Shown: piece by piece, positions 40,440-56,893 of the stretch
Position numbering within the stretch: position 1 is the stretch's first letter
How the letters are laid out: every line of letters starts with the position of its first letter
NCBI RefSeq assembly: GCF_003697815.1
Contig: NZ_RDQG01000005.1
Span: 1 to 64,000 of the forward strand
Direction of reading: 5' to 3'
Length of the DNA: 64,000 bases
Source of the DNA: Halalkalicoccus subterraneus
GTDB taxonomy: Archaea > Halobacteriota > Halobacteria > Halobacteriales > Halalkalicoccaceae
Made by a program: the position numbers and the translations under genes
Notes under the pieces: generated by a model
The model's database searches: none
Told to the model about the DNA's origin: nothing
Seen by the model: only the letters and a program-made list of their open reading frames with translations

Positions 40440-40587
40440 TGCCCGGGGAGGGCTCCGAACCCTCGATCTCCGCATGACCCAGATTCGAGCCGTGGCACGG
40501 CGCGTGGGCATGGGAGGCTTCCAAGGCAGCCGCCTCGACTCTGAAACCCTATGAGTGCGGCGCTATGACCAGCTAAGCCACCCGGGC
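40440..40587 (-). tRNA. elongator tRNA-Met (CAT) with intron
   Basis: On the minus strand the acceptor GCCCGGG (40587-40581) pairs with CCCGGGC (40447-40441), followed by discriminator A at 40440. The anticodon stem CCGCA/TGCGG encloses the loop with CAT at 40553-40551. A T arm GAGGG-TTCGGAG-CCCTC follows. An intron of about 74 nt (40549-40476) begins after the base 3' of the anticodon, the canonical archaeal position. CCA is not encoded. Haloarchaeal elongator tRNA-Met is known to carry an intron of about this size, cut by the splicing endonuclease. Confidence 0.93.
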
Positions 40588-40634
40588 GCGTTCGTCGGTT
40601 GTCGGCTGTCGACCTTTAAGGTTCTCATCTGCGC

Positions 40635-40988
40635 TCACTCCCGGCCGGTGACCTTCCGGATACACGAGGAGCCGAAGGGGCCGTGTTCGCCGGATTCGAA
40701 CCGGATGAAGTGGCCCGTCGAGAGCCCCGCCCCACAGCGCCGACAGGTAAACTCGCCTTCTTTCACCACTACCTCGCTCTCGAAGCTGACGAACGCCCCC
40801 CGCTGGGGACGGATCAGGCCGTTCTCGCGCGCGATGATCCCGCGTTTCTCCGCTGTATCGAGGATCTCGCGGGTGAGATGGGGATCTGTCGTTACCGTCT
40901 CGAGGCGGTCGACGGCCTCCGAGAGTTCCAGGGACTCGTCCTCGCAGTGTTCGAGCAGTTCACAACCCAGCTCCACCGGATCGCTCAT
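40635..40988 (-). CDS. small haloarchaeal zinc-ribbon protein (DUF5830-like)
   Basis: The 117-residue protein has an N-terminal helical part (DPVELGCELLEHCEDESLEL, ETVTTDPHLTREILDTAEKRGII), which looks like a winged helix, and a C-terminal FTCRRCGAGLSTGHFIRFESGEHGPFGSSCIRKV. CRRC plus a distal Cys could bind zinc. I recall this as haloarchaeal DUF5830. The function is unknown; DNA or RNA binding is plausible. ATG 40988 (MSDPV) is preferred over GTG 40991. Confidence 0.8.
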   Translation of the reverse strand: MSDPVELGCELLEHCEDESLELSEAVDRLETVTTDPHLTREILDTAEKRGIIARENGLIRPQRGAFVSFESEVVVKEGEFTCRRCGAGLSTGHFIRFESGEHGPFGSSCIRKVTGRE

Positions 40989-41046
40989 CACCCGTCTTTC
41001 CCCGTCGGTTCACAAAGCGCTTCCCACACTACGCGGCGTTCGGATG

Positions 41047-41166
41047 TCAGTAGAAGGTGTCCGCACAGTCGTAGATCACGCCGTGGTTCGGACAGACGTA
41101 CTTGCAGTGGCGGTGGTACATCGGCGTCTCACAGCGCGGGCAGGGCCGGCCGCCGGTGTCGCTCAT
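41047..41166 (-). CDS. 39-residue zinc-finger mini-protein (HVO_2523 type)
   Basis: The tiny frame reads MSDTGGRPCPRCETPMYHRH, then CKYVCPNHGVIYDCADTFY and TGA. The CPxC...C..C pattern with HRHCKYVCP and the ending YDC(S/A)DTFY match the haloarchaeal zinc-finger micro-protein family typified by HVO_2523. It is too short for most gene finders. It would bind one zinc; the partner is unknown. It lies 58 nt from the DUF5830-like gene, on the same strand. Confidence 0.85.
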   Translation of the reverse strand: MSDTGGRPCPRCETPMYHRHCKYVCPNHGVIYDCADTFY

Positions 41167-41271
41167 ACTCGATTGAGGACGCCGGGTGTGCTAAGCGTTC
41201 GGGGCCGGGATCGACCCTTGATAGTCGACCGAGTCGCGCCCGACGATGTCGAGATCCCGCACCGCGGGCGA

Positions 41272-42522
41272 TCAGCCGAAGATCGGGTCATCGCACAACT
41301 CCGCATCGAGCACCGAAACGCCCTCGATCCCGTCGAGTCCCGCGAGAACGCCCCCCACGTGTTCGGGGCCGTTCCCCTCGATCCCGAGGACGAGCGACCG
41401 GCGGTTCGGGTCGTCGCCGGGCGTGCGTCGGTCCGTCTCGACGGCAGCGAGCTCCGCCCCGCCCTCGGCTACCCGGTTTGCGATCGCCTCGATCCGGGAG
41501 CGGTCGTCGACGGCGAGCCGCGGCGTCGCGTATCGGCCGAGCTCGATCAACCCCTGGCGGACGAGGTCGGCGTGGTCGGTGAGGTCGACGTTGCCTCCCG
41601 AGAGCACGGCCGCGACGTGTTCGTCGGCGACGTCCGCCGCACCCGACAGTAACGCCGCCAGCGGCGCGGCGCCCGCCGGCTCGACGACGGTCTTCGCGCG
41701 CTCGGCCGCCAGCGCGACAGCGGCCGCGATCTCCGCGTCGGAGACGGTCAGCACGCCGTCGACCCGCCCGCGCATCGTCTCGAAGGTGGTTTCCAGCAGT
41801 CGAGTATCGGCGATCCCGTCGGCGACGGTGTCGACCGACTCGCGCTCGTAGATCGCCCCCTCAGAAAGCGAGCGCCCTGCGTGGGCCGCGCCCTCGGGCT
41901 GGACGCCCAGAACGCGAATCGAGGGATCGGCCGCCGTCAGCGCGGTCGCGATCCCCGAGATCAGCCCGCCACCGCCGATCGCCACTAGGACGGTGTCGAG
42001 TTCGGGGTACTGCTCGCGCAGTTCGAGTCCGATCGTTCCTTGCCCGGCGATCACCCGCTCGTCGTCGAACGGGTGGACGAACGCCCATCCCTCGCGCTCG
42101 GCCAGTTCGAGCGCGTGCTCGTAGGAGCGTTCGTAGATGTCGCCCTCGACGACGACCTCCGCGCCGTAGCCCCGGGTCGCGGCGATCTTTGCTGCCGGCG
42201 TGATTTCGGGAACGACGATCGTCGTCTCGATCCCTAACAGGTCGCCGGCGAGCGCGACTCCCTGGGCATGGTTGCCCGCGCTCGCCGTGATCACGCCCCG
42301 ATCGAGCTGTTCCGCCGAAAGCTGAGCCATGCAGTTGTACGCCCCCCGAATCTTGAACGAGCCCGTCCGCTGGGCGTTCTCGAGTTTGAGTCCTACCGAA
42401 CGTGCCCCGCTCATCCCCGCGAACGTCGTCGAGCGATCCATCGGCGTCCGGTGGATCACCTCCGCGAGGCGCTCGCGTGCAGCCTCGACGTCCTCGACGG
42501 TGATCGGGTTCTCGCCCGTCAT
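41272..42522 (-). CDS. ilvA: threonine ammonia-lyase
   Basis: The protein of about 416 residues is a PLP enzyme with the Lys motif RTGSFKIRGAYN, TASAGNHAQGVAL and AIGGGGLISG, plus a C-terminal ACT-like domain (RRSLVLGIEGNGPEHVGGVLAGL) for allosteric control. It deaminates threonine to 2-oxobutyrate. The ATG at 42522 (MTGENP) has GAGGGA about 8 nt upstream; the Met at 42564 is too close to the TATA-like TTAAG (42578-42582). The promoter contains the regulon element. EutB of ectoine clusters belongs to the same superfamily, so another substrate is conceivable. Confidence 0.9.
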   Translation of the reverse strand: MTGENPITVEDVEAARERLAEVIHRTPMDRSTTFAGMSGARSVGLKLENAQRTGSFKIRGAYNCMAQLSAEQLDRGVITASAGNHAQGVALAGDLLGIETTIVVPEITPAAKIAATRGYGAEVVVEGDIYERSYEHALELAEREGWAFVHPFDDERVIAGQGTIGLELREQYPELDTVLVAIGGGGLISGIATALTAADPSIRVLGVQPEGAAHAGRSLSEGAIYERESVDTVADGIADTRLLETTFETMRGRVDGVLTVSDAEIAAAVALAAERAKTVVEPAGAAPLAALLSGAADVADEHVAAVLSGGNVDLTDHADLVRQGLIELGRYATPRLAVDDRSRIEAIANRVAEGGAELAAVETDRRTPGDDPNRRSLVLGIEGNGPEHVGGVLAGLDGIEGVSVLDAELCDDPIFG

Positions 42523-42585
42523 CCCATTCCCTCGATCGTGTACGTTGATAGCATGCGGGCTCATCTCACGCCGTCCACTTAACTG

Positions 42586-42613
42586 TACACAGGAACCGTT
42601 GACATCGGATACG
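42586..42613. promoter_or_regulatory. regulon element at the ilvA promoter
   Basis: The sequence is TACACAGGAACCGTTGA followed by N6 and ATACG. It matches the element at 48024-48051 at 22 of 28 positions, with the same 8-nt offset to an upstream CTTAA (the ilvA TATA in reverse). It belongs to the TACAC-N5-CCG family described in the findings. Confidence 0.65.
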
Positions 42614-42638
42614 GACGGCGCTCCGATTCGGTTCGCCG

Positions 42639-42655
42639 ATATCGGATACTGTGTA
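42639..42655 (-). promoter_or_regulatory. second regulon element in the ilvA-aminotransferase gap
   Basis: On the minus strand this reads TACACAGTATCCGATAT, sharing TACACAG, CCG and several other positions with the element at 42586. It lies 26 bp before the TTATTTAT box (42681-42688) of the aminotransferase gene, a position suited to an activator. Confidence 0.5.
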
Positions 42656-42711
42656 TGTCACGTTCGGGAACCGTTGAGAAGTTATTTATCGACGGTGTTC
42701 ATGGGTGACGT

Positions 42712-44070
42712 ATGGCAGGACCACCGATCGAGGAGATCCACTTCGAGAACGCGCCCGACGTCGGGGAAGTGCCGGGCCCCGAGTCCACACGACTGGTCGA
42801 GAAACAACGCGAGATCGACAGCAGCGCCGTCGCCTATCCCAACGACATCCCGCTTGCCTTCGAGGAGGGGAAGGGCGCGACGCTCCGGGATGCCGACGGC
42901 AACACCTTCATCGACCTGTTTGCGGGCATCGGCGTGCTCAACGTCGGCCACGCGAACCCCTACGTGATGGAGGCGGTCCACGAGCAGGCCGACAAGATCG
43001 TTCATACGGTGGACTTCCCCAGCGAGGCCCGCCTCGAACTCATCGAGAAGCTCGACGAGATCGCACCGGGCGAACTCGCGGGGGACAATCGAGTGATCTT
43101 CGGCGGTCCGACCGGCAGCGACGCCATCGAGGCCGCGATCAAGCTCGCGAAGTACAACACCGGTAACACCGGTCTGATCGCCTTCCGGGGGGCCTACCAT
43201 GGCCCAACCAGCGGCCCGATGAGCCTGACCTCAAACAAGAAATTCAAGAGCCGCTACACGCCCCTGCTCCCCGACGTCGTCCACGCGCCCTATCCTTACC
43301 CACTCAGACAGGGCAAAACCGAGGACGAGGCGGTGAAGGACGCCCTCGAAGAGGTCCGCGCGATCGTCGAGGACCCCTACGGCGGGCTTGCCAATCCAGC
43401 AGGTATTTTCGCCGAGCCGATTCAGGGCGAAGGCGGGGTCGTCGTCCCGCCGGAGGGATTTCTCGAGGGGCTGCGCGAGATCGCCGACGACAACGCCCTT
43501 CCCTTAGTGTTCGACGAGATCCAATCAGGATTGGGCCGCTCGGGCGAGTGGTTCGCCTGCGAGCACTACGACGTGACGCCCGACGCGATGACGATGGCCA
43601 AGGCCCTCGGAGGAGCCGGTTTTCCCCTCTCGGCGACGATGTACCGCGAGGAACTCGACACGTGGGGACCGGGCGACCACGCCGGCACCTACCGGGGCCA
43701 CGTCGTCGCGATGCGTGCGGGCACGCGGGCTATCGAGTACATCCAAGAACACGACCTCCTCGCGCATGCCCGCGAACTCGGCGAGTACCTGCGGGGCCGG
43801 CTGCGCGAGGCCGGCGAGTCGAACCCGCTCCTGGCGGAGGTCCGTGGGAAGGGCCTGTTCATCGGCGCGGAGTTCTCGGACGACGGCGAACCCGCCGACG
43901 AGGTCGTCGACGAGATCCAGCGCTACTGCTACGAGCGCGGCGTGCTCGTCTGGACCGCCGGCCGCCACGGAAGCGTTCTTCGCCTGTTGCCGCCGCTCGT
44001 GCTCACCCACGAACTGGCCGAGACGGCGATGGACGTGGTCTGCGAGGCGATCGAGCGGACGACCCCTTGA
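42712..44070 (+). CDS. class III aminotransferase (4-aminobutyrate/diaminobutyrate type)
   Basis: The 452-residue PLP enzyme has [70 protein letters not shown] and the PLP Lys in [15 protein letters not shown]. The last motif is typical of the diaminobutyrate--2-oxoglutarate group. It would transfer an omega-amino group to 2-oxoglutarate. TTATTTAT at 42681-42688 is about 27 nt before the ATG, so the message is leaderless. The neighbouring genes suggest breakdown of a diamino or gamma-amino compound. Confidence 0.88.
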
Positions 44071-44120
44071 GAACCGCGCCGCTTCGACGTTCGTTGTCCT
44101 ATCGTCCCGCTCGGCACTCA

Positions 44121-44140
44121 GTATACGTAATATGTGTGTG
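44121..44140. promoter_or_regulatory. regulon element upstream of the BCCT transporter
   Basis: GTATACGTAATATGTGTGTG matches the element in front of the second aminotransferase at 14 of 20 positions. It lies about 20-40 bp upstream of the TATA-like TTAAG (44164-44168). Confidence 0.5.
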
Positions 44141-44194
44141 CTATCTACAATAATCGCAACCGTTAAGACCGTCGTTCCCGATTGAGCCCGATAG

Positions 44195-44314
44195 ATGACA
44201 CCACATACCATGATCGGGGGTGGACTGCGACACGCATCAGAGAACGGCCCCGTCGTCCGGGACGCCGATCCGACCGAACCGTGCGAGCGCGACGGTGGAA
44301 CGGGGGTGCTCTAA
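44195..44314 (+). CDS. 39-residue leader ORF before the BCCT gene
   Basis: The frame begins MTPHTMIGGGLRHASENG, continues PVVRDADPTEPCERDGGTGVL and ends in TAA 2 nt before the BCCT ATG. TTAAG at 44164-44168 is about 29 nt upstream of this ATG, so a leaderless transcript would begin at this ORF and not at the transporter gene. The codons are GC-rich in the third position, like real genes. It could be a small protein or a leader that couples transporter translation. No family is recognised. Confidence 0.5.
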   Translation: MTPHTMIGGGLRHASENGPVVRDADPTEPCERDGGTGVL

Positions 44315-44316
44315 GT

Positions 44317-45951
44317 ATGGCTGACGACGAACTCGGAGCAGTCGGTCGGTTCCGAGAGGAGATCGATCCGGTCGTCTTCCTGGTCGGCGCCGGGATCACG
44401 CTGGGCGTGATCGTGACGTTCTTCGTCAACCCCACCGCCGTTCAGGACGCGATCGCGGACCTCAACGGGGTAATGAACCAGTACCTGAACTGGGCGTTGC
44501 TCGTGATCGTCTTTCTGATCGTCCTGTTCTTGCTGTTCCTGATCGTCGGGCCATGGGGCAAGATCAAGTTCGGCGACGACCCGCCCGAGTACAGCTTCCT
44601 GTCGTTTTTCTCGATGCTGTACTCCGCGGGCTTCGCCGCGGGCGTCGTCTTCTGGGGACCGACCGAGGCGCTGTTCTATTATGCCGACCCCTCGCCGCTG
44701 TTCGACGTTTCAGGGGGATCGGCCGCGGCGATGAGCATCGCCGTCCAACAGACCCTCTTTCACTGGGCGCTGCCCCAGCTCGCGGTCTTTACGATCATGG
44801 GCATCGCCATCGGCTATTACACGTATAACTACGAGAGCGTGCCCCTGAGAGTGTCCTCGGCGTTGACGCCGATCCTCGGCAAGGACAATCTCGACGGGCC
44901 GGCCGCGAAGGTCGTCGACATCCTCGCGGTGTTCGCGACCATCGGCGGCGTCGCCACCTCGCTCGGGTTCATCGGCAGCCAGTTCATCAGCGGCCTGAAC
45001 TTCCAGTGGGGAATCGACCTCGGAAACGCCGGCATCCTGATCGTGGTGACGACGATGACGCTGCTGTTTACGATCTCGATGGTGCTCGGCGTCGATAAGG
45101 GGATCCGGCGGCTTTCGAACTTCAACATGATACTGTTCGTCACGCTCATGCTCGCGACGTTCCTCGTCGGTCCCTCGATCTTCCTCGTCCTGCTGGGGAC
45201 GCAGGCCGTCGGCGGGATGATCAGCGATTTCGTCGCCATGAGCCTCTTTACGGGTGCGGGCGTCGAGGGCGGCACCGAGTGGGCCAACGCCTGGACGGTC
45301 TTCTACTGGGCGTGGGCGCTCTCGTGGTCGCCCTTCGCGGGTCTGTTCATCGCGCGGATCTCGCGCGGGCGGACGGTCCGTGAGGTCGCCTTTACGGGCA
45401 TTGCCGCGACCTCCGCGGCGACCATCCCGTGGTTCACGTTCATCGGCGGCACGGCCGTTTGGGCCCAGCACAACGGCGTCGCCGACTTCGGCGCGGTGAT
45501 CGCCGGCGAGATCGGCCCGGAGGCATCCGGGTTTATCCTCTTCGAGGCGTTCCCGTTCGGGTCGGTGCTCATGATCGCGTTCATGGTCCTCGTGACGACC
45601 TTTTTCATCACGTCGGCGGACTCCTCGACGCTCGCCGTCTCGATGATGACTACCGGCGGGAAAGCCCACCCTTCGACCATCAACCGGGTGTTCTGGGGTG
45701 TAGTGCTGGGGATAACCGCCGCGATCCTCATGATCATCGGCGGCGAGGGCGGCGTTGAAGCGCTCCAGCAGGCGGTCGTCATCACGGGCGCACCCTTTGC
45801 GTTCGTCTGCTTCCTCGCGATGCTCGGGCTCGCAAAGGAATTCAGTGCGAACCACGGCCGCGTGATCCTACAGGACGGGGCGTGGATCATCGGCTCGGGG
45901 CCCGACCGCTCGAAACAGAACGACACCCCGCCCGCCGCCGACGACGACTGA
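44317..45951 (+). CDS. BCCT-family transporter with altered aromatic box
   Basis: The 544-residue protein has twelve predicted helices and BCCT hallmarks (GPWGKIKFGDDPPEYSF, FYWAWALSWSPFAGLFIARISRGRTVRE, TFFITSADSSTLAVSMM). BCCT carriers import betaine, carnitine, choline or ectoine with sodium or protons. Compared with BetP, helix 4 reads HWALPQLAVF (Trp189 kept, Trp194 to Leu, Tyr197 to Phe) and helix 8 reads WAWALSW (Trp374 to Ala). The trimethylammonium box is thus mostly lost and another substrate is likely. The start MADDELGAV follows the small ORF. Confidence 0.9.
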   Translation: MADDELGAVGRFREEIDPVVFLVGAGITLGVIVTFFVNPTAVQDAIADLNGVMNQYLNWALLVIVFLIVLFLLFLIVGPWGKIKFGDDPPEYSFLSFFSMLYSAGFAAGVVFWGPTEALFYYADPSPLFDVSGGSAAAMSIAVQQTLFHWALPQLAVFTIMGIAIGYYTYNYESVPLRVSSALTPILGKDNLDGPAAKVVDILAVFATIGGVATSLGFIGSQFISGLNFQWGIDLGNAGILIVVTTMTLLFTISMVLGVDKGIRRLSNFNMILFVTLMLATFLVGPSIFLVLLGTQAVGGMISDFVAMSLFTGAGVEGGTEWANAWTVFYWAWALSWSPFAGLFIARISRGRTVREVAFTGIAATSAATIPWFTFIGGTAVWAQHNGVADFGAVIAGEIGPEASGFILFEAFPFGSVLMIAFMVLVTTFFITSADSSTLAVSMMTTGGKAHPSTINRVFWGVVLGITAAILMIIGGEGGVEALQQAVVITGAPFAFVCFLAMLGLAKEFSANHGRVILQDGAWIIGSGPDRSKQNDTPPAADDD

Positions 45952-45983
45952 TTCGCCCCCATTCACAAGCGTTTTCCGACATC

Positions 45984-46003
45984 GTACACGATTTCCGTGT
46001 ATG
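45984..46003. promoter_or_regulatory. regulon palindrome overlapping the start of the 46001 gene
   Basis: GTACACGATTTCCGTGTATG contains the dyad TACACG-ATTTC-CGTGTA (45985-46001) and ends in the ATG of the downstream gene. It is identical at 18 of 20 positions to the element at 53151-53170, which also ends in a start codon. A protein bound here would block initiation. Confidence 0.7.
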
Positions 46004-46660
46004 AGTAGCGACAACGAAACCCCCAGTAGCGAGTCGGCCGCCGACCTCGCGTTCGATCCCGGGCGCGACCGGGGAATCCTGACTCCAAGTGACCGGGAGT
46101 TCCTGTTGGGGCGTAAAACCGACTACACCGAGCATTCGAAGAAACAGAAGCGAAACCGGATCCGCCGGCGGGTCCGCAACGCGATCCTCGATTTCACCAT
46201 CCTGTTCGATCACTTGGACGAGCGCGACCGCGAGACGGTGTTCGACCCCGAAAACGAGAAACGGGAGGCCTACACCCGTGGGATCACCGACACGCTCGCC
46301 TTCTTCCATCTCGGGACGATGGGGTATTCGACGCCGTTCAAGGACATGCTCGCTCGCGGGGTCTCGAAGGGCGAACAGGAGCTGGCGGACTCGGAGTACC
46401 GGATGGTGAACGTCGAGTTCAACGTCGACCCCGTCGGGCGGATCGACGTCGACGAGGTGGTCGAGAAGCTCGACGAGGGCCGGTTCGACGAGCTCACCGA
46501 CGAGGAGTTGCGGGCGTTCGTGCGCCTGCTCGCCGAAAGCGAGGCGTTCTCCTCGGCGCCGGTCCGTGAGGAACTCAAGGGACGGATGGACGAGTTCGTC
46601 CGCCGGACCGCAGAGGCGACTGCCCACCGTGAGGGGCGTATCGAGGATCTGACCGATTAG
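46001..46660 (+). CDS. conserved haloarchaeal protein of unknown function
   Basis: This 219-residue, very charged and helical protein has ILTPSDREFLLGRKTDYTEHSKKQKRNRIRRRVRNAILDF near residues 26-65, with a strongly basic stretch (KKQKRNRIRRRVRN) that could contact nucleic acid, and a C-terminal acidic helical region. I recall homologues as uncharacterised haloarchaeal proteins. No HTH is certain. It is the only candidate in the cluster that might be a regulator. Its start codon lies in the regulon palindrome. Confidence 0.75.
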   Translation: MSSDNETPSSESAADLAFDPGRDRGILTPSDREFLLGRKTDYTEHSKKQKRNRIRRRVRNAILDFTILFDHLDERDRETVFDPENEKREAYTRGITDTLAFFHLGTMGYSTPFKDMLARGVSKGEQELADSEYRMVNVEFNVDPVGRIDVDEVVEKLDEGRFDELTDEELRAFVRLLAESEAFSSAPVREELKGRMDEFVRRTAEATAHREGRIEDLTD

Positions 46661-47988
46661 GGGCGCTCGGCCGCGATTTTCTCGATCGATCCGGTGAGCA
46701 CGTCGAGTGCGATCCCCAGCGAACGCTCGTCGACGTCGAAATGCGGGGTGTGGTGGCTGTCGGGGTGGTCGGTTCCGACGACGAGATACGAGGCCAGCCC
46801 GCCCGCGTCCTGTACCGCCTCCATGAGGAAGGTCGCGTCCTCGCTCGCACCGAAATCGGCGGTTTCGACCGGATTGTCGACCCCATCGACCCCGCGTGCG
46901 ACCCCGTGGACCAGCGCCGCGAGCTCGGGATCGCTGTCCGCGCGCGGCGACTCGCTGTGGACCTGCAGGTCGGCCTCACAGCCGTGCATCTCGGCGGCCG
47001 ACGTACAGACCCGCTCGAAGCGCCCCTTCATCGACTCCATCAGCCGGGTGGTCTCGCCGCGCACCTCCGCGCTGATCCGCGCGTCCTCGGCGATGACGTT
47101 GCTCGTCGTTCCGGCCTCGACCCGGCCGACGTTGACCCGCGTCATCCCCTCGGCGTGACGCGGGATCCCGTAGGCCTCGCTCACCGCGGTCGCCATGGCT
47201 TGGATCGCGTTGGCCCCCTTCTCGGGCGCTTGTCCCGCATGGGAGGACTGTCCGGTGAAATCGACGTGCATGTGGCTCATCGCCAGCGGCTTTTCGATCC
47301 CCGCGACGACCTCGCCGGTGGGGTGATCGAGGCCGACGTGGACACAGAGCAGGTACTCGATACCCTCCATGTAGGGCCCTTCGGCCATCGGCCGTCCGCC
47401 GCCGCCGTCCTCCTCTGCGGGCTGGAAGAAAACGGTGAAAGTACCGGAGAAATCGCTCTCGGCGACGGCCTCCAGCACCGCGATCCCGATCGTCATGTGG
47501 GCGTCGTGCCCGCAGGCGTGCATCATCCCCTCGTGTTCGGAGCGAAACCCCTCGCGTGCGGGGAGGTGCCCCTCGTCCGAGGCCTCCTCGATGAACAGCC
47601 CGTCGATGTCGACCCGAAGCCCGATCGAGGGGCCCTCGCCGCGATCGAGGACGGCCACACAGCCCGTATATCCACCCTCGCAGGCCGAAAGCACGTCCTC
47701 GCGGGCGCCAGCCGCCCGCGCCCGATCGAACCATTTCTCCAACTCCTCGTCGTCCGGGACCGCCATGCGCTCGTCGGGGGCCATCGCCTCGCGTCCGACC
47801 GCGAGTTCGTCGACACCGCGGGAACCGTTCGGCTCCCGCAAGCCATCCGAGCACTGCTCGGCGACCCCTATGTGCTCGATCTCGTCGACCAGCAGGCTCG
47901 TCGTGTAGAACTCCCGCCACGCCGGTTCGGGGTACCGGTGAAAGGTCCGTCTGCGCTCGACCATCCCCTCGCGTATCGTCCGTGACAT
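46657..47988 (-). CDS. M20-family amidohydrolase (aminobenzoyl-glutamate hydrolase/aminoacylase type)
   Basis: The 443-residue zinc amidohydrolase has MMHACGHDAHMTIGIAVLEAVA, FFQPAEEDGGGGRPM, a dimerisation domain with QSSHAGQAPEKGANAIQAMA, and GTDHPDSHHTPHFDVDE. The insert with GREAMAPDERMAVPDDEELEKWF resembles AbgA-like subunits. It hydrolyses an N-acyl amino acid amide bond. In this cluster it could replace DoeB as deacetylase. The start codon is about 30 nt after TTTTTAAGTGG, fitting a leaderless mRNA. It overlaps the 46001 gene end by 4 nt. Confidence 0.87.
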   Translation of the reverse strand: MSRTIREGMVERRRTFHRYPEPAWREFYTTSLLVDEIEHIGVAEQCSDGLREPNGSRGVDELAVGREAMAPDERMAVPDDEELEKWFDRARAAGAREDVLSACEGGYTGCVAVLDRGEGPSIGLRVDIDGLFIEEASDEGHLPAREGFRSEHEGMMHACGHDAHMTIGIAVLEAVAESDFSGTFTVFFQPAEEDGGGGRPMAEGPYMEGIEYLLCVHVGLDHPTGEVVAGIEKPLAMSHMHVDFTGQSSHAGQAPEKGANAIQAMATAVSEAYGIPRHAEGMTRVNVGRVEAGTTSNVIAEDARISAEVRGETTRLMESMKGRFERVCTSAAEMHGCEADLQVHSESPRADSDPELAALVHGVARGVDGVDNPVETADFGASEDATFLMEAVQDAGGLASYLVVGTDHPDSHHTPHFDVDERSLGIALDVLTGSIEKIAAERP

Positions 47989-48023
47989 TCTCTCGCGAAC
48001 TCGTCGTTCCAGCCACTTAAAAA

Positions 48024-48051
48024 TACACAGAATTCGTTGATAGCGAATACG
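48024..48051. promoter_or_regulatory. regulon element between the M20 and dehydrogenase genes
   Basis: TACACAGAATTCGTTGA plus N6 and ATACG matches the ilvA element (22 of 28). It sits between CTTAA (the M20 TATA in reverse, 48016-48020) and ATTTTAG (48054-48060), the likely TATA of the dehydrogenase gene, so one bound protein could act on both promoters. Confidence 0.65.
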
Positions 48052-48092
48052 AAGATTTTAGCGGTATGCGGTGATCGAGTGGAACGATATCT

Positions 48093-49061
48093 ATGACTGA
48101 GGACCGACCGGACGTGGTGGTGCTGCGCGAGGGGACCGAGGGCCTCTCGACCGAACCGTACGCCGAAGAGCTGCGCGAGCGGCTGCCCGACCGGGAGGTC
48201 CGCCGGGCCCGGACGCCGAGCGAGGAGCGCGAGCTGATCGAAAATGCCCGAATCGCAACCGGGGTGCGGATCGGCGAGGATTTACTAGAGCACGCCGAGG
48301 CGCTCGAACTGTTCGCGTGTGCCTTCGCGGGCACCGAGCACCTCCCGATCGAGGCGCTGCGCGAGCGGGGCGTGGCGGTGACCAACGCCGGCGGGATCCA
48401 CGCGCCAGGGCTCGCGGAGGGCGTTCTGGGGAACATGCTCGTCTTCGCCCGGCGGCTCCACGAGGGCTGGCGGCGAAAACAGAACAGGGAGTGGCGCCAC
48501 TTCCAGTCCGGGGAACTGACCGGCAGCACAGTAACAGTTGTCGGCCTCGGTTCCATTGGGAAGGCGCTCGTCCAGCGATTGGCGGGAATGGAGGTCGAAA
48601 CTATTGGAGTGCGCTACAGTCCTGAAAAAGGTGGGCCGACCGACGAGGTGATCGGGTTCGACGAGGAAGGTCTCCACGACGCACTCGCGCGCACCGATTA
48701 CCTCGTGATCGCCTGCCCGCTGACGGAGACGACGAGGGGGCTGATCGGCGAGGCGGAGTTCGCCACCCTACCCCCCGAGGCGGTCCTGATCAACACCGCC
48801 CGCGGGCCGATCGTCGAAACCGACGCGCTGGTGGATGCGATCCAGACCAACGCCATTCGTGGGGCGGCACTGGACGTGACCGACCCCGAACCCCTCCCTT
48901 CAGAACACGTCCTGTGGGGCTTCGAGAACGTCATGATAACGCCGCATACGGGCGGGCATACTCCGAAACACTGGGAGCGACTGGCGGAGATCGTCGCCGG
49001 AAACGTCGAGCGTCTCGACGTTTCCGGCGAGCTCGAGAACCTCGTGCTCGCGCCGGAGTGA
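48093..49061 (+). CDS. D-2-hydroxyacid dehydrogenase
   Basis: The 322-residue protein has the NAD-binding motif TVVGLGSIGKALVQRL near 150, VLINTARGPIVETDALVDA (catalytic Arg), DVTDPEPLPSEHVLW (catalytic Glu) and MITPHTGGHTPKHWE (catalytic His). It reduces 2-oxo acids or oxidises D-2-hydroxy acids. The specific acid is unknown. It shares a divergent promoter with the M20 gene. Confidence 0.92.
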   Translation: MTEDRPDVVVLREGTEGLSTEPYAEELRERLPDREVRRARTPSEERELIENARIATGVRIGEDLLEHAEALELFACAFAGTEHLPIEALRERGVAVTNAGGIHAPGLAEGVLGNMLVFARRLHEGWRRKQNREWRHFQSGELTGSTVTVVGLGSIGKALVQRLAGMEVETIGVRYSPEKGGPTDEVIGFDEEGLHDALARTDYLVIACPLTETTRGLIGEAEFATLPPEAVLINTARGPIVETDALVDAIQTNAIRGAALDVTDPEPLPSEHVLWGFENVMITPHTGGHTPKHWERLAEIVAGNVERLDVSGELENLVLAPE

Positions 49062-50423
49062 TCAGTCGTCGTCGGCCGGGATCGCTTGCGTCTCGGGAAA
49101 GTTCCCGACCGTCGCCTCGCGGAAGCCCCGTTCGTCGAACTCGAACTCGCCGTCGAGGAACTCCATCAGCTGATCGGTGTCGCGCATGGCGTTCTTCAGG
49201 CAGGTCGAGGCGCCCGGCGAGGGGGTGACGTTGAAGATGATCCCGTCGCCGGTGATCTTGGCCTCGCCCATGTCGAGGTTCTTGCCCTCGGTGTCGACGA
49301 TCTGGGGGCGCACCCCGCCGTAGCCCTTCGCCCGCTCGATGTCGTCGAGTTCGACGTTCGGGACGACCTTCTTCACGTGCGGGAGGAAGGCGCGTTTACC
49401 GACTTCGGGGACATCGTAGAGCAGGTTCCTGAGCACGTACGGCAGCAGGACCCGGTCGGCCAGCACGTTGCCGTAGCTGAGGAAGGAATCGACGTTCAGT
49501 CCGAAGACGTCGAAGAAGTCCTCGACCGTCGAGAGCTCCCCGCGTTCGAGCGTCGGCACGAGCTTGGCCGTCGGCCCGAACCGGGTGATTGAATCGTCGT
49601 GGACGTCCGCGTCGCCGTGGATCGCGGCGAAGGGGAGCTTCTGCATCTGGAGCGTGTAGACCTTACCGTTCAGCAGGTCGTCGCCGAGGAAGAAACTGCC
49701 CGCGACGGGCAACAGGGACTTGTTCTTCCCGTAACCCATCTCCTTTGCGACCTGCAGGCTGTGTGAACCCGCCGCGACGACGGCGGCCTCGGCCTCGAAC
49801 CAGCCCGCCTCGCTCTCGACGATGAAGCCGTCGTCGGTCTCGTCGAGGCGCTTTACCTCGCTGCCGGTGTAGACGTCGATCCCCTCCTCCTCGCTTGCGT
49901 CCTCGACGAACGATTTTGCGGTCTCGCCGTAGTCGACGACGTAGCCGTCGGGCGTCTGGAGCGCCAGCAGTTCGGTGTCGGGATCCCGTCCCTCGACGAC
50001 ATTGGGTTCGATCTCGGCGATCTCCTCGCGGTCGATCGCCCGAAGGTTCGGGTACAGGTCCGAAAACCCCTCGTCGTGATAGCGTGCGGTGAGTTCGTCG
50101 ACCTCCTCCTCGCCGACCGCCAGCACCATCTTGCTTCGCTTGCTGTGGATCTCCCGGTCGGGGTCCTCGTCTTCGAGGTAGCCCGCGAGCATCTGGGCCC
50201 CTTCGTTCACCTCTTCGGCCTTCTCGCGGGTGTAGTTGGTCTCGATGTCACCGAAATGCAGCGTCTGGGAGTTGTTCGTGTGATGGGAGTTGATCGTCGC
50301 GATCTCGTCCTCCTTTTCCAGTAACGCTACCCGCTCGATGTCGGTGAACTTCGAGACGGTATAAAGCAGCGCTGCCCCACTAATTCCTCCGCCGACGATG
50401 ACGAGGTCGTATTTTTCTACCAT
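49062..50423 (-). CDS. malate:quinone oxidoreductase-like FAD protein
   Basis: The protein of about 453 residues begins VEKYDLVIVGGGISGAALLYTVSKF (FAD dinucleotide motif) and has the Mqo-like NNSQTLHFGDIETNYTREKA. It also has AAVVAAGSHSLQVAKEMGYG, ITRFGPTAKLVP and GYGGVRPQIVD. Mqo transfers electrons from malate to membrane quinones. Homologues may act on other 2-hydroxy acids, which would fit the dehydrogenase next door. The start MVEKYDL is chosen over an 11-codon extension. Confidence 0.83.
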   Translation of the reverse strand: MVEKYDLVIVGGGISGAALLYTVSKFTDIERVALLEKEDEIATINSHHTNNSQTLHFGDIETNYTREKAEEVNEGAQMLAGYLEDEDPDREIHSKRSKMVLAVGEEEVDELTARYHDEGFSDLYPNLRAIDREEIAEIEPNVVEGRDPDTELLALQTPDGYVVDYGETAKSFVEDASEEEGIDVYTGSEVKRLDETDDGFIVESEAGWFEAEAAVVAAGSHSLQVAKEMGYGKNKSLLPVAGSFFLGDDLLNGKVYTLQMQKLPFAAIHGDADVHDDSITRFGPTAKLVPTLERGELSTVEDFFDVFGLNVDSFLSYGNVLADRVLLPYVLRNLLYDVPEVGKRAFLPHVKKVVPNVELDDIERAKGYGGVRPQIVDTEGKNLDMGEAKITGDGIIFNVTPSPGASTCLKNAMRDTDQLMEFLDGEFEFDERGFREATVGNFPETQAIPADDD

Positions 50424-50565
50424 GATGTAAACCCTCCTGCACGACGGTCGTTTCACTCGGATGAACGAGTCTCGACTACTTTTCTATGTCGATATCCGCC
50501 GGTAGAAACGTTACCACGCCACAATTCGAAGGACCGGTACTGCGATCACCGAACGACCCGGGCGA

Positions 50566-51759
50566 TTAGACCGAGAACACCTTCTGGGGGAACGAGGAGA
50601 AGCGTTCGGCCCCGTTTGCCGTCACCCGGAACGACTCGCTGATCTCGACGCCCAACTCGTCGGTCCAGATACCGGGAATCATGTGGAAAGTCATGTCCTC
50701 CTTCAACACCGTTTCGTCGCCCGGTCGGAGGCTCGCGGTGTGCTCGCCCCAGTCCGGCGGGTAACCGAGCCCCATCGAGTAGCCGATGCGGTCCTCCTTC
50801 TCGATGCCGTGTCTCGCGATCGACTCCCGCCAGGCAAGTTCGACCTCCTCGCAGGTCACACCCGGTGCGGCCGTATCGAGCGCCGCGTTCAGCCCCTCGA
50901 CGACCACGTCCGCGACCCGCTCCATCTCGTCGGGGACGCCCCCAACGACGGCGGTCCGCGCAAGCGGCGAGTGATACCGGTGGCGACAGCCCGCCAGCTC
51001 GACGATCACGGGGTCGCCCTCCTCGAAGGGCTCGTCCGACCACGTCAGATGCGGCGTCCCGGTGTGTTCGCCCGAGGGCATCAGCGGGACGATCGCCGGA
51101 TAATCGCCGCCGAAGGACTCGGTGCCCGCAACGAGGGTGTGGTAGATCTCCGCCGCGACCGTGGACTCGGGAACGCCCTCGCCCATCGCGTCGATCCCGG
51201 CCTGCATCGCGGCCTCAGAGAGCTGGGTGGCCTGCTCGATCAACTCGATTTCGGCATCGGATTTCACCACGCGCACCCAGCTCACGAGCAGGGTGGCGTC
51301 CGAGAACGTCGCCTCCGGGAGTCGCTCTCGGAGACGCTGGTGGGATTTGGCGGTGTAGTAGTAGGCGTCCATCTCGACGCCGACATGCGTATCGCCCCGT
51401 CCCATCTCCTCGATGACGTGGGCGACGTAGTCCATCGGGTGTTTGCCTACGGGCGACTGGACGTGGTCGTCGCTGTAGGGGTAGAGATTCTCGTGGTCGA
51501 TCCAGACGGTGGCTTTCGCGCCGTTTTTGTCCATGTCGCGGCCCACCCAGACGGGCTGGTCGTGGTCCAGCGAGACGATCAGCCCCTGATGGACGTAAAA
51601 CGACCAGCCGTCGTAGCCCGAGAGGTAGTTCATGTTCGCGGGATCGGTGAGAAAGAGCGTCTCGATTCCCGCCTCGCGCATGTGGTCTTTCGTTCGCTCC
51701 AGTCGCCGTTCGTACTCCGCTCGTTCGAACACCTGCACGGTAATCACTAACAAGACCAT
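50566..51759 (-). CDS. M24-family hydrolase, ectoine hydrolase (DoeA)-like
   Basis: The protein of about 397 residues has a creatinase-type N-terminal domain (LFLTDPANMNYLSGYDGWSFYVHQG) and a pita-bread C-terminal domain. The metal site is unusual: VELAGCRHRYHSPLARTAVVG has Glu and Pro where M24 peptidases have Asp residues. As far as I recall, ectoine hydrolases DoeA/EutD share this pattern. DoeA opens the ectoine ring to N-acetyl-diaminobutyrate. The start is uncertain (ATG 51759, or GTG 51747 or 51738). A weak regulon-like half-site (GTTTCCGATGTATAC, minus) lies about 30 nt upstream. Confidence 0.78.
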   Translation of the reverse strand: MVLLVITVQVFERAEYERRLERTKDHMREAGIETLFLTDPANMNYLSGYDGWSFYVHQGLIVSLDHDQPVWVGRDMDKNGAKATVWIDHENLYPYSDDHVQSPVGKHPMDYVAHVIEEMGRGDTHVGVEMDAYYYTAKSHQRLRERLPEATFSDATLLVSWVRVVKSDAEIELIEQATQLSEAAMQAGIDAMGEGVPESTVAAEIYHTLVAGTESFGGDYPAIVPLMPSGEHTGTPHLTWSDEPFEEGDPVIVELAGCRHRYHSPLARTAVVGGVPDEMERVADVVVEGLNAALDTAAPGVTCEEVELAWRESIARHGIEKEDRIGYSMGLGYPPDWGEHTASLRPGDETVLKEDMTFHMIPGIWTDELGVEISESFRVTANGAERFSSFPQKVFSV

Positions 51760-51809
51760 CCTCTCGGCCGCGGGACTTATGTTTTCGTATACATCGGAAA
51801 CGAAACCCG

Positions 51810-53153
51810 TTACCGCACCGATTCGATCGCGTCGCGAAACAGCGAGACCCCGAGTTCGATCTCGCGCTCGGTCACGTCGAGCGGCGGCAGGAGTCGAACC
51901 GTACTGTGGCCACAGCCGAGCGTGAGCAGCCCGCGCTGGAGTCCTGCCTTCACGACCTCGGTACGGCGTTCTTTCGAGTCGAACTCGACGGCGAGCATCA
52001 GGCCCTTTCCCCTGACGTCCGTCACCCCTTCGAGGTCGGCATCCCGCAGCAGTTCCTGCATCTGCCGGCCGCGCTCGACGGCGTTCTCGAGCAGGTCGTA
52101 CTCCTCGATGGCGTCGAGGGTGAACACCCCTTGGGCCGCCGCGACGAGGTCGCCGCCGCCCCACGTCGAGCCGAGGCGGTTCTTCTCCTCGGGGAAGACG
52201 TCCGAGCGGGAGATCGTCGCGCCCGAACGAAGCGCCTTCGCGCTGCAGATCACGTCCGGCTCGATGGCGTAATGATCCGCGGCCCACATCTCCCCTGTGC
52301 GGCCGATCCCCGATTGGATCTCGTCGACGATCAGGTGGATGTCGTGGGTCTCACAGACCCGCTGGACCTCTTCCATGAACGCGTCGCTCGGGAACCGGTA
52401 GCCGCCGACGCCCTGGACCGGTTCGAGGACCATGAAGGCGACCTCCGCGGGGTCCATGTAGCCCCGCTCGGGATCGAGCATCCGTTCGAGCTGCGAGCGC
52501 CCGCCCGCGAAGAAGCCACACGAGCAGGTCGATTCGTCACAGGTGCGGTCCTCGCAGAAGGGCACGGTTCGGGTGCCGGCGATCTCGGGATACGCGCGCG
52601 TGTAGACGTCGCCGGCACGCGTCATCGAGAGCGTTCCAAGGGTTCGGCCGTGAAACGCCCCCAGAAAGGTGATTCCGTACTTCCGTTCGGGGGTGTTCGC
52701 GTACGCGATCTTCATCGCGTTCTCGATGGCCTCCGCGCCCGAGTTCGAGAGGAAGACGGTGTCCATGTCGTACTGCGAGGCGCTCCCGACGAGACGCTCC
52801 ATGAGCTGGGCCGCGCCCGGGATCTCGGGGTCCTCGGGACCGCCCGCCGACCCGGCGTAGAAGTCCTGGCCGGCGATCTTCAGCGGGTCGACGAGGTCGA
52901 ACTCCGCCATTCGATCCGTTATCTTCGGGTTGTTGTAGCCGAGCGGCGCGGCACCGATGTGACAGGTGAAATCGAGGAAGACGTTACCGTCGAGGTCGGT
53001 GCAGAACGGGCCCTCGGCCTCGCCGGAGACGTCCCAGGCGAACTCGTGGGCGTGCTCGCTGGGCGCGGAGTATTGATGGTGATGGTCGATCCACTCGCGC
53101 GTCCGCTCCCCGGGAAGCCGCCGGACGCTCGGCTCCGCGTTATCACGATCCAT
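51810..53153 (-). CDS. class III aminotransferase with a four-Cys insert
   Basis: The 447-residue PLP enzyme has FLSNSGAEAIENAMKIA, FLGAFHGRTLGTLSMT, VLEPVQGVGGYRFPSDAF, LIVDEIQSGIGRTGEMWA and the PLP Lys306 in CSAKALRSG. An insert at residues 200-212 carries Cys200, 205, 210 and 212 (FCEDRTCDESTCSC), possibly a metal or disulfide site. Next to the DoeA-like gene it is a good candidate for the DoeD step (diaminobutyrate transamination), by inference. A TTAATAA box at 53175-53181 sits 25 nt before the ATG. Confidence 0.87.
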   Translation of the reverse strand: MDRDNAEPSVRRLPGERTREWIDHHHQYSAPSEHAHEFAWDVSGEAEGPFCTDLDGNVFLDFTCHIGAAPLGYNNPKITDRMAEFDLVDPLKIAGQDFYAGSAGGPEDPEIPGAAQLMERLVGSASQYDMDTVFLSNSGAEAIENAMKIAYANTPERKYGITFLGAFHGRTLGTLSMTRAGDVYTRAYPEIAGTRTVPFCEDRTCDESTCSCGFFAGGRSQLERMLDPERGYMDPAEVAFMVLEPVQGVGGYRFPSDAFMEEVQRVCETHDIHLIVDEIQSGIGRTGEMWAADHYAIEPDVICSAKALRSGATISRSDVFPEEKNRLGSTWGGGDLVAAAQGVFTLDAIEEYDLLENAVERGRQMQELLRDADLEGVTDVRGKGLMLAVEFDSKERRTEVVKAGLQRGLLTLGCGHSTVRLLPPLDVTEREIELGVSLFRDAIESVR

Positions 53154-53170
53154 ACACGGAAACCGTATAC
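53151..53170 (-). promoter_or_regulatory. regulon palindrome overlapping the start of the second aminotransferase
   Basis: On the minus strand GTATACGGTTTCCGTGTATG has the dyad TATACGG-TTT-CCGTGTA and ends in the ATG of the aminotransferase gene. The TATA box is immediately upstream (53175-53181). Binding would cover the transcription start. Confidence 0.7.
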
Positions 53171-53254
53171 CTCGTTATTAACTCTTGTCGTCGTGTGCGA
53201 TAGCGACCGCTGCCGGTGAGGATCGGGAGAACCGAGCGGAAACGGGAACCTACC

Positions 53255-56200
53255 TCAGCACTCCGACCAGCCACATGACTCGCAGGTCTTACAGCCCTCC
53301 GAGTAGTACAGCGTCATCGAGCCACAATCGGGACACTCGGGGCTCTCGCCCGCGTCGATGAGGTCCTGATGGGCGCCCTCCGAAGCGCCCGACTCGACCG
53401 CCGCCCCACCGTCCGTTTCGGGGGCATCGGGCGTTTCGCGGGTCAGTTCCTCCTCCTCGAGTTCGGTGAGGTTCTGCTGTTTGGGGTACGCGCGCTCGAT
53501 ATCACCGTCGAGATAGCGCCGCATCGCCGTACCGATCGCGTCGGGGATGGAGTTGACCTGCTGGCCCTTGTCCCAGGCGACCTTCGGCGAGCGGATCCCC
53601 TGGAGTTCGCTCGCGATCTCCTCGGGATCGACGCCCGAGCGCAGGGCGGTCGAGATGGTTTTCGCGAGCGCCTCGGTGAAGCTCGCGGTGAACCCTCCCG
53701 AATTACCGATGTTCGCGAAGAGCTCGAACGGGCGGCCCTCGCTGTCCTCGTTGATGTTGACGTAGAGCTTGCCGTAGCCCGTGTCGATGCGCTGGGTCAC
53801 GCCGTGGAGCACGTCGGGTCGGGTGCGCTTTTGGGCGTACTGACCCGACTCGGGCGTGAAGTCGAAGTCGTCGGCGACGACCGCGCGGACCTCCTCGTGA
53901 GTGAGGAACTCGTCGATCCCGCCGAACACCTCGGTGATCTGTTCGACGAGCGCCTCGGCGGCTTCCTCCTCGTCGGCGAACTCGGCGTTCTCGGCGCGGG
54001 TAGTCAGCACCTGCTTCGATCGGGTACCGTCCCGATAGACGGTGACGCCCTTGCCGCCGTTGTCGTAGATGAACCTGAAGACATCCGCCATGTCCTCGCG
54101 CGAGGCGTCGTTCGGGAAGTTGCAGGTCTTCGAGATGGCCGAATCGACGCCCGTCTGGCAGGCACACTGGACGGCGGCGTGGTCCTTACCGGCCAGATCA
54201 CCCGTGACGACGAACAGCTCGCCGATGGCGTTCGGGACAGTGGAAAGCCCCTCGACGCCATCGAACTCGTTGCTCCCCATCTGTTCTTGGGCCTCACGTT
54301 TGACTTCCTCGACGTCGATGTCGTTGGCCTCCAGAGTGCGCAGGAAGTAGTCGTCGAACTCGACGAGCATCTCGTCGCCCTGGACGTCGTCGCTCACGTT
54401 CTTGTAGTAGGCGACGTTGTAGATGGGCTCACATCCCCCCGTCGTGTTGCCGACCATCGAGGTCGTGCCGGTGGGCGCGATCGTCGTCGTGTTGTGGTTG
54501 CGCATCGGGAAGCCTTCATCCCAGTCGCTTGCGTCCTCGCCAGTGTGGTGTTCGAACCACTCGGCGTACTCGGTGGGGTTCGCGTACTTCGAGTCGGCCC
54601 AGTCCTCGAAGCTCCCGCGCTCGCCGGCGAGTTCGTGGCTGGTCCGTTTCGAGCCGTGGTTGATGCGAGTCATCAGCTGGCTCGCGATCTCGTTTCCTTC
54701 CTCGCTGCCGTAACGAACGCCGAGCTGGATGTACAGCTGGGCCAGTCCCATGACTCCGAGCCCGATCTTTCGCATCTCTCTGACTTTCTGCTCGATCTCG
54801 GGGACGGGGAAGTCCGACATCGTGACGACGTTCTCGAGGAATCGGGTCCCGAGTTCGATGCGGCGCTCGAACTCGGCGGTGTCGATCGCCTCGTCGAGAT
54901 AGGCCTCGACTGCGCCCTCGAAGGAGTCGTACTCCTCGATGTGGTCGGCGTGCCAGACCCGCCAGTCGGGGGCTCCCTCGGCTGCGAGCGTCGAGAGGTT
55001 GATGTGGCCCAGGTTGCAGGCCTCGTACTCCTCTAAGGGCTGTTCGCCACAGGGGTTCGTCGCGAGAATGCGGTGGTCGGGGTGGGCCTCGACGTCGAAG
55101 GAGTGTTCCTTGTTCACCCGTTCGAGGTAGATCACGCCGGGTTCGCCGTTCTCGTAGGCACCGTCGACGATGCGATCCCAGATCGCCTCGGCGGGGATCG
55201 AGAACTCCTCGCCGACCTCGACGTGCTCGCCCAGGCCGTAGCGCTCGTACATCTCCTTGGTCTCGGCGGTCGCGATGTGGGGCTCCCCCGTGCGTGGATT
55301 CTCGAAGGTGAACTCCTCGCCGGCCTCGAGCGCCTCCATGAAGTCATCCGTGACGCCGACGCTAATGTTGAAGTTCGAGAGGTGTCCCTCGACGGCGTTT
55401 CTGAGGTGTTTGGGAACCCGTCCATCCTCGTCGATCAACTCACGGGCTTCTTCGAGCGCTTCGGAGAAGGTGGTGTAGGTGTAGTCGTCGGGGTCGTTGA
55501 GCCGCAGCGTGTGGGCCAGCGAGACGTCCTTGTTCTTCGCGTGGATGAATTCGATGACGTCCGGGTGCGAAACGCGCATGACGCCCATCTGAGCGCCGCG
55601 CCGGGCGCCACCCTGGGCGATCGTCTCGCACATCTGGTCGAACGTGCGCATGAACGTGATCGGACCGCTCGCGATCCCGCCCGTACTTCCCACCGAATCG
55701 CCATACGGTCGGAGCTGCCAGAACGCATAGCCCATGCCACCGCCCGACTGGAAGACCTCGGCGGCCTCCTTTGCGGTCTGGTGGATGTCGGAGATGTCGT
55801 CGCCGGGAGAGTCGACGAAACACGCAGAGAGTTGCTGGAGCTCGTCGCCCGCGTTCATCAGGGTCGGTGAGTTCGGGATGAACGAGAGGTCCTCCATTAG
55901 ATCCCGGAACTCCGCCGCTTTCGCCTCGACATGCTCGCGGATCTCGGCGGGAAGCTCGGGGACGATCGTGTCGTAGGTGAACTTGTTGACGTTATAGACG
56001 GTGAGTTCGGTTTCGGCACTGTCGTCGGCAGTGGTACCCGCCCCGAAGACTGCCGCCGCGAGCTCGTCGCGGCGTGGGTGGTCGGGCTTGAGCTGGTCCG
56101 GCGAGACGGTGACGGAGACGTCCCGGCGCTCGCCCTCAAAGACCGCCTCCGCGAGCGCGATGTTCTTCGCGACGCGGACGAAGAGGTCCTCCTGGGTTTC

Positions 56201-56350
56201 GACGAGTTCGCCCTCGGCGTCCTTCTGGAGATACCGTGCGGGAAGGATGTTCTGGTAGGCGTTCGTGGTCAGGCGCTCTTCTAAACTCTCTCCGTCGGTG
56301 CGCTTGACCGGGAGGGTGACCGATTCCGCGTCGGAGTCCGCGCGGCTCAC
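53255..56350 (-). CDS. nrdJ: adenosylcobalamin-dependent ribonucleotide reductase
   Basis: The protein of about 1031 residues has the class II reductase motifs: FIPNSPTLMNAG, QLSACFVDSPGDDISDI, QSGGGMGYAFWQLRPYG, LATNPCGEQPLEEYEACNLG and PTGTTSMVGNTTGGCEP. It ends in a zinc/redox tail, CPDCGSMTLYYSEGCKTCESCGWSEC. It makes deoxynucleotides using vitamin B12. The GTG at 56350 (SRADSDAESVTLPVKRTDG) is chosen because GAGGGG lies about 8 nt upstream and the family begins near this point; the 33-codon extension to 56449 lies in AT-rich DNA and is not family-like. Confidence 0.95.
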   Translation of the reverse strand: MSRADSDAESVTLPVKRTDGESLEERLTTNAYQNILPARYLQKDAEGELVETQEDLFVRVAKNIALAEAVFEGERRDVSVTVSPDQLKPDHPRRDELAAAVFGAGTTADDSAETELTVYNVNKFTYDTIVPELPAEIREHVEAKAAEFRDLMEDLSFIPNSPTLMNAGDELQQLSACFVDSPGDDISDIHQTAKEAAEVFQSGGGMGYAFWQLRPYGDSVGSTGGIASGPITFMRTFDQMCETIAQGGARRGAQMGVMRVSHPDVIEFIHAKNKDVSLAHTLRLNDPDDYTYTTFSEALEEARELIDEDGRVPKHLRNAVEGHLSNFNISVGVTDDFMEALEAGEEFTFENPRTGEPHIATAETKEMYERYGLGEHVEVGEEFSIPAEAIWDRIVDGAYENGEPGVIYLERVNKEHSFDVEAHPDHRILATNPCGEQPLEEYEACNLGHINLSTLAAEGAPDWRVWHADHIEEYDSFEGAVEAYLDEAIDTAEFERRIELGTRFLENVVTMSDFPVPEIEQKVREMRKIGLGVMGLAQLYIQLGVRYGSEEGNEIASQLMTRINHGSKRTSHELAGERGSFEDWADSKYANPTEYAEWFEHHTGEDASDWDEGFPMRNHNTTTIAPTGTTSMVGNTTGGCEPIYNVAYYKNVSDDVQGDEMLVEFDDYFLRTLEANDIDVEEVKREAQEQMGSNEFDGVEGLSTVPNAIGELFVVTGDLAGKDHAAVQCACQTGVDSAISKTCNFPNDASREDMADVFRFIYDNGGKGVTVYRDGTRSKQVLTTRAENAEFADEEEAAEALVEQITEVFGGIDEFLTHEEVRAVVADDFDFTPESGQYAQKRTRPDVLHGVTQRIDTGYGKLYVNINEDSEGRPFELFANIGNSGGFTASFTEALAKTISTALRSGVDPEEIASELQGIRSPKVAWDKGQQVNSIPDAIGTAMRRYLDGDIERAYPKQQNLTELEEEELTRETPDAPETDGGAAVESGASEGAHQDLIDAGESPECPDCGSMTLYYSEGCKTCESCGWSEC

Positions 56351-56643
56351 GCGCAAATCCCCTCGACGCCAGCAAATAGGTTCTGTCGCCTGATTTCTCT
56401 CGATGAAGTCTTCATATCTACTTCCATGTTTGACGAGGATTCCATACATCTCTCCATAGATAAACCCCCATCATTTCATTTCTTACACAATCATGAGGAA
56501 TAAACTGATGGCTGGGTAATATTTAGACTAACAATTCTGCCACTTTCAGTGGCAATTCCGCTTGTATTCTACATCGGCTCGAACCTATTAGTATGTATCC
56601 CAACCGGAGCGAAAGTGATTAATACCTCTTTGCTGTGTATATC

Positions 56644-56690
56644 ATTGCAACACAAGGTGGGCTCTGAGAACTTGATCAGAGCCTTGCAAT
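56644..56690. ncRNA. possible structured element (two-part hairpin)
   Basis: Outer arms ATTGCAA (56644-56650) and TTGCAAT (56684-56690) enclose inner arms GGCTCTGA (56660-56667) and TCAGAGCC (56676-56683) with an 8-nt loop and a 9-nt one-sided bulge. Fifteen pairs in an otherwise unstructured AT-rich gap suggest a folded RNA or a protein site. No known RNA family is recognised. Confidence 0.35.
56648..56664 (+). repeat. 17-bp direct repeat, copy 1
   Basis: CAACACAAGGTGGGCTC differs from copy 2 at 56894-56910 by one base. The copies are 246 bp apart. This copy lies in the bulge and inner arm of the hairpin. Confidence 0.6.
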
Positions 56691-56893
56691 ATCCTCCTTA
56701 GAGAGTCATCAATCGGGCGAGAACACGTACGACTAATAGAACGGCTTGTAACGTTAATTTCAGTAATACCAGTCGATTTCGGAGAGTCGGTTATCTGTGT
56801 CCGCTTGATTTGCGTTGTTCGCTAACAGGGTTGTCACTACGGGAGGTGCTTTTACTCATCTTGTTAGTGGAGATCCGGAGAGAACACCTGTTA

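Follow-up and report, generated by a model that had tools for sequence, protein, structure and literature searches.

A 17-bp palindromic element found at most promoters of a 10.6-kb gene block is probably the operator of a cluster-specific regulator, the most likely candidate being X219, the one gene in the conserved cluster core to which no function has been assigned. The block lies in the window (the whole 64,000-nucleotide stretch of Halalkalicoccus subterraneus DNA analysed here), in a host genome of 3.6 Mb. The sites themselves are real and functionally constrained. One dedicated regulator for the block, as an earlier note on this DNA had proposed, is the simplest reading of their confinement to the block and of their conservation in congeners and at 45 distant loci. 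The earlier note named no regulator; X219 is newly proposed here. The genes stand in the order ilvA - AT1 - BCCT - X219 - M20 - D2HDH - LhgO - M24 - AT2:

41272..42564, minus strand: ilvA, threonine ammonia-lyase-like PLP dehydratase (TIGR01127, 389 bits, above the cut-off)
42712..44070, plus strand: AT1, class III aminotransferase (PF00202; diaminobutyrate transaminase-like models score below their cut-offs)
44182..45951, plus strand: BCCT family transporter (PF02028)
46001..46660, plus strand: X219, predicted DNA-binding (auto)regulator of an uncharacterised family (from co-occurrence, paralog operators and a basic segment)
46657..47988, minus strand: M20 amidohydrolase, in the position of DoeB/EutE (TIGR01891, above the cut-off)
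48093..49061, plus strand: D2HDH, D-2-hydroxyacid dehydrogenase (PF02826)
49062..50456, minus strand: LhgO/DAO-type FAD oxidoreductase, for which no operator site of its own was found
50566..51771, minus strand: M24 hydrolase, whose closest model is the ectoine hydrolase DoeA/EutD (446 bits against a cut-off of 613)
51810..53153, minus strand: AT2, class III aminotransferase (PF00202)

LhgO, which is malate:quinone oxidoreductase-like, belongs to the cluster only in Halalkalicoccus; in other genera, RidA, glutamate dehydrogenase, aldehyde dehydrogenase and FAD/Fe-S genes join it. Positions 40500-58000 of the window gave no Rfam match to a riboswitch or structured RNA. Further along the window, positions 56645-56664 and 56891-56910 carry a 20-bp imperfect direct repeat (TTGCAACACAAGGTGGGCTC) whose copies lie 246 bp apart in an AT-rich stretch upstream of an adenosylcobalamin-dependent ribonucleotide reductase gene; this repeat has no Rfam match.

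Upstream alignment of the block genes across six congeners defines the conserved 17-bp site as TAYAC-N7-GTGTA with an AT-rich spacer. The AT2 and X219 sites are nearly symmetric, and several promoters carry only one perfect arm, in an asymmetric variant, TCNACG-N6-GTGTA; the M20/D2HDH and ilvA sites combine a strong arm (TGTGTA) with a weaker one (TCNACG). This definition replaces TACAC-N5-CCG, the pattern under which the earlier note had described the element: the shared element is real, but that wording is too loose. The pattern has eight fixed bases, not the nine with which its improbability had been argued, and taken alone it occurs at background, with 104 exact matches genome-wide and 4 in the window against 1.34 expected, a count reached by 6 of 100 shuffles. 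All six sites that the earlier note had listed are nevertheless present where it had placed them. The sites, with the promoter elements that adjoin two of them, are as follows:

42586..42602, minus strand: ilvA site TCAACGGTTCCTGTGTA (read in the window as TACACAGGAACCGTTGA), kept in congeners, profile score 12.5 bits
42639..42655, plus strand: AT1 site ATATCGGATACTGTGTA (minus-strand reading TACACAGTATCCGATAT), about 73 bp before the AT1 ATG
44122..44138, plus strand: BCCT site TATACGTAATATGTGTG, kept at about -60 in congeners
45985..46001, plus strand: X219 site TACACGATTTCCGTGTA, near-palindromic and abutting the X219 ATG; a 5-7-5 dyad at -16 in the X219 family
48015..48023, minus strand: M20 TATA-like element TTTTTAAGT, recognised from the sequence, adjoining the operator
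48024..48040, minus strand: M20/D2HDH site TCAACGAATTCTGTGTA (listed also as TACACAGAATTCGTTGA), common to both divergent genes
53153..53169, minus strand: AT2 site TATACGGTTTCCGTGTA (listed also as TACACGGAAACCGTATA), abutting the AT2 ATG
53175..53181, minus strand: AT2 TATA-like element TTAATAA at -28 to -22, recognised from the sequence and conserved

The AT2 operator therefore sits between a TATA-like element and the start codon, and a TATA-like element at ilvA (TTAAGTGG) lies directly downstream of the operator site there. Within the genus, the AT1 site keeps to positions -70 to -74, and the M20/D2HDH site, the best genome-wide match to the profile, to -49 to -53 of M20. The weak match reported upstream of M24 scores about 4 bits in the window genome, too low to be counted there, but some congeners have a clear site (14-19 bits), as do 88% of the distant loci.

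Genome-wide, the stricter forms of the motif concentrate in the block. Of the 9 distinct occurrences of TNNACRNNNNYYGTGTA in the 3.6-Mb genome, 4 fall within the 10.6-kb block; TAYAC-N7-GTRTA occurs at 7 places, 2 of them within the block, and the other 5 equal the control count. A profile of 17 positions, built from 24 genus sites plus variants, gives exactly four matches at E<=10, all of them block sites (150 of 979 first-look candidates scored). To some extent this result is circular, since the profile includes sites of the window; the lack of further matches, however, is not. Among the candidates scored, matches are thus confined to the block instead of being spread evenly over the genome, the outcome that the earlier note had named as counting against its claim.

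The same note had looked to relatives for support, and six congeners do indeed keep the sites at the same genes, with distances that hardly differ. Conservation also holds at 45 loci outside the genus (Haloferax, Halorubrum, Natrialba, Natronorubrum, Haladaptatus, Halorussus, Halobacterium and others), where a site was scored at >=14 bits within 150 bp upstream. These loci lie outside the set from which the profile was built, although a few profile sites are identical to sites in the nearest outgroup (L037), one of the 45. The AT2 site is present at 37 of 37 distant loci, each time at exactly -16. The M24 site (88%, its position also fixed) and the AT1 site (85%, mostly at -77) follow, then D2HDH (69%), BCCT (58%), M20 (55%, mostly at about -50) and X219 (51%), the X219 start often lacking a site in Halorubrum/Natrialba-type clusters; the ilvA site is found at none (0%). 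For comparison, 3.7% of 374 other genes of the same 45 loci carry a site, and column-permuted profiles give at most about 1% on average. In the Halarchaeum cluster (L079), further strong sites at 13028, 13149 and 15543 lie near an aldehyde dehydrogenase-family gene and other genes, which are possible extra members of the regulon.

All plasmid records retrieved label X219 a 'hypothetical protein'. Its close orthologs (>=65% identity, E<1e-87) are separated from the next group, which begins at about 3e-31, so that the E-values of orthologs and paralogs fall into two groups with a clean gap between them. Of 146 genomes in the order, 44 encode M24. A close X219 ortholog is found in 35, each of them among the 44 with M24, and none occurs in a genome without it. 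Six clusters that lack X219 (G065, G081, G089, G099, G077 and G093) have no motif site. Two members of one genus illustrate the difference: the AT2 site reads TACACGATTTCTGTGTA in G094, which has X219, and TTCGCGATTTCTGCCTA in G099, which lacks it and in which the arms have decayed around an intact spacer. Two genomes of genus g25 (G027 and G106) keep the AT2 site, at 19.4 and 22.4 bits; their other genes carry no sites, and even a profile search finds no X219-family protein in them. At these two loci (L142 and L145), IclR genes lie near AT2, which retains its operator.

At the protein level, a basic segment, SKKQKRNRIRRR...DF, is invariant among the X219 orthologs (nearly so at the second residue of SKKQKRNRIRRR) and is followed by a hydrophobic helix. 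Haloarchaeal proteomes are acidic, and a basic segment of this kind is unusual in them. The family core, GI[LV][TS]xxDRxxL...RIRxR...DF, is present. When paralogs are included in the alignment, AlphaFold gives a confident, all-helical model (pLDDT 87, pTM 0.64) that places the basic segment in a long, confident helix, whereas an ortholog-only alignment yields a poor model (pLDDT 51). X219 matches nothing significant in Pfam, NCBIfam or PDB sequence searches, and a Foldseek search with the model returns no PDB match (best E about 7), so that its assignment to a known domain is rejected. No known DNA-binding domain was detected in Pfam, PDB sequence or Foldseek searches; in particular, the wHTH/HTH Pfam domains of Lrp/AsnC, IclR or TrmB are absent from X219 and 50 family members. 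A literature search found neither a description of the X219 family nor one of an archaeal protein that regulates the cluster.

The distant relatives of X219 carry dyads of their own. Across forty loci encoding such paralogs (about 23-40% identity), many have a dyad directly before their own ATG with the same 5-7-5 geometry and other arms, namely TAATC-N7-GATTA or TAGYC-N7-GACKA. When paralogs and X219 orthologs were scanned separately over spacings of 3-10 and offsets of -60 to +9, the best dyad in both sets had spacing 7 at -16. At this position, at least four of five pairs are matched in 15 of 37 paralogs, 32 of 52 orthologs and 18 of 444 control genes; under another start-codon rule, 17 of 36 paralogs have the dyad, 12 of them perfect. 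A self-abutting 5-7-5 dyad is thus found at the window X219, at most orthologs and at about half of the paralogs, several paralog clades being without one; as the paralogs are mutually related, their dyads are not independent events. The arms track the protein tree in TAATC, TAGYC and TACAC clades, and one genome (G046) encodes no fewer than three family members, which between them use three distinct arm pairs. TAATC-N7-GATTA is rare: six whole genomes contain 1, 1, 3, 1, 1 and 2 copies, the one at the paralog start always among them. It abuts the paralog start codon at L206-L210, L213, L216-L218, L220 and L225, and the TAGYC-N7-GACKA clade comprises L200, L202, L203 and L205. In the f6 clade (L230, L231, L232 and L236), TAATC-N7-GATTA lies at the paralog stop codon instead of the start, where it may perhaps serve the downstream gene. 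The start-codon dyads have the pattern expected of a self-regulating DNA-binding family and would be hard to explain if X219 were merely a target.

This pattern bears most directly on the strongest competing explanation, a real operator read by an unlinked conventional regulator of the Lrp/AsnC, TrmB, GntR or IclR type, with X219 a mere target and perhaps an enzyme accessory. The persistence of the AT2 site in two genomes without X219 is consistent with such a regulator, as is the want of a recognisable DNA-binding domain in X219. However, loss of the sites goes with loss of X219 in most cases, and the paralogs have their own, different dyads in identical geometry at their own starts, so that a separate unlinked regulator would be needed for each. 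This explanation is therefore considered unlikely. An origin of the repeats by chance or from general features of promoters (TATA/BRE, start-codon context) has a negligible probability: TACAC-N5-CCG alone does stand at background, but the positions recovered out of sample, the permuted profiles, the control genes and the genome-wide confinement all argue against it, and the 45-distant-locus test refutes it.

Another competing candidate is a cluster-linked IclR-family protein, its gene being found in 9 cluster loci as the only recurrent linked regulator and, in G027 and G106, divergent from or near AT2 where X219 is missing. Yet close orthologs of the Haloferax type occur in few genomes (G125, G084, G092 and, at 50%, G107), in G027 and G106 the IclR gene near AT2 shares only about 36% identity with that type, and Halalkalicoccus has only paralogs of about 42-44% identity, none of them linked. 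The IclR protein is not conserved together with the motif and was rejected as the cluster regulator; its probability of having this role is very low. X219 is the preferred candidate. On balance, it may well be the founding member of a so far unrecognised haloarchaeal family of DNA-binding regulators whose helical fold is absent from solved structures and in which every clade would read a 5-bp half-site of its own, set in an unvarying 5-7-5 dyad against its start codon.

DNA binding by X219, its binding as a dimer, the sign of regulation, the inducer and the substrate are all predicted. An X219 dimer would bind the 17-bp dyad TAYAC-N7-GTGTA. Since the AT2 and X219 sites abut the start codon, binding there should repress: at AT2, the operator would hold the dimer between the TATA-like element and an apparently leaderless start, and at X219 the operator is placed as at AT2, making autorepression the natural reading. 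At M20 and ilvA, where the operator lies against the upstream edge of the TATA-like element, bound X219 could repress by blocking TBP/TFB. At AT1, the operator is farther upstream and may mediate repression or activation. Judged from operator position, repression is the best single reading, with activation possible at AT1. The signal is probably the substrate of the cluster or an intermediate, because the block is a putative cluster for the uptake and degradation of an ectoine-type solute.

Ectoine itself is the likely substrate. EutD/DoeA (TIGR02993) is by far the best model for the M24 protein, although its curated cut-off is not reached. The M20 protein scores 118 bits against NCBIfam DoeB_2, whose cut-off is 550, and the M20 and aminotransferase genes bear only a loose likeness to those of Doe enzymes. 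Haloarchaeal clusters of like make-up have been described as putative, unconfirmed ectoine catabolism clusters (PMC13188858, 2026); in its accessible text, that paper terms the archaeal clusters provisional and names no archaeal regulator or operator. The cluster described there comes from Halobacteria and shares with the block an EutD/DoeA-like M24 gene and genes for an aminotransferase, a peptidase-type protein and a BCCT transporter; the two appear to be the same.

The proposal assigns to an uncharacterised, widespread haloarchaeal cluster a defined regulon, an operator of 17 bp and a candidate regulator, and it offers a function for a protein family annotated as hypothetical and without a curated-family match. 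Since paralog genes display in their promoters the half-sites that their products presumably read, it should be possible to predict specificity and target genes across the family. Known archaeal regulation is dominated by wHTH/HTH families; if the proposal is true, X219 would be a regulator that stands apart from them.

Haloarchaeal regulators that control their own genes, such as TrmB and RosR, use palindromic operators located close to the TATA box or the start site. These proteins possess recognisable winged-helix domains, whereas X219 matches neither a Pfam family nor a PDB fold. In Proteobacteria, ectoine catabolism is controlled by EnuR, a MocR/GabR-type regulator in which a GntR-type HTH is fused to an aminotransferase domain (fold-type I), and whose operator is an inverted repeat with 5-bp arms and the consensus ATTGT-N6-ACAAT (PMC8739950). 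The likeness lies in a dedicated regulator for an EutD/DoeA-type catabolic and uptake cluster and in an operator built, as in the block, from an inverted repeat with 5-bp arms. The proteins differ, X219 having neither a GntR-type HTH nor an aminotransferase domain in Pfam searches, and so do the operators, which read TAYAC-N7-GTGTA in the block and ATTGT-N6-ACAAT for EnuR.
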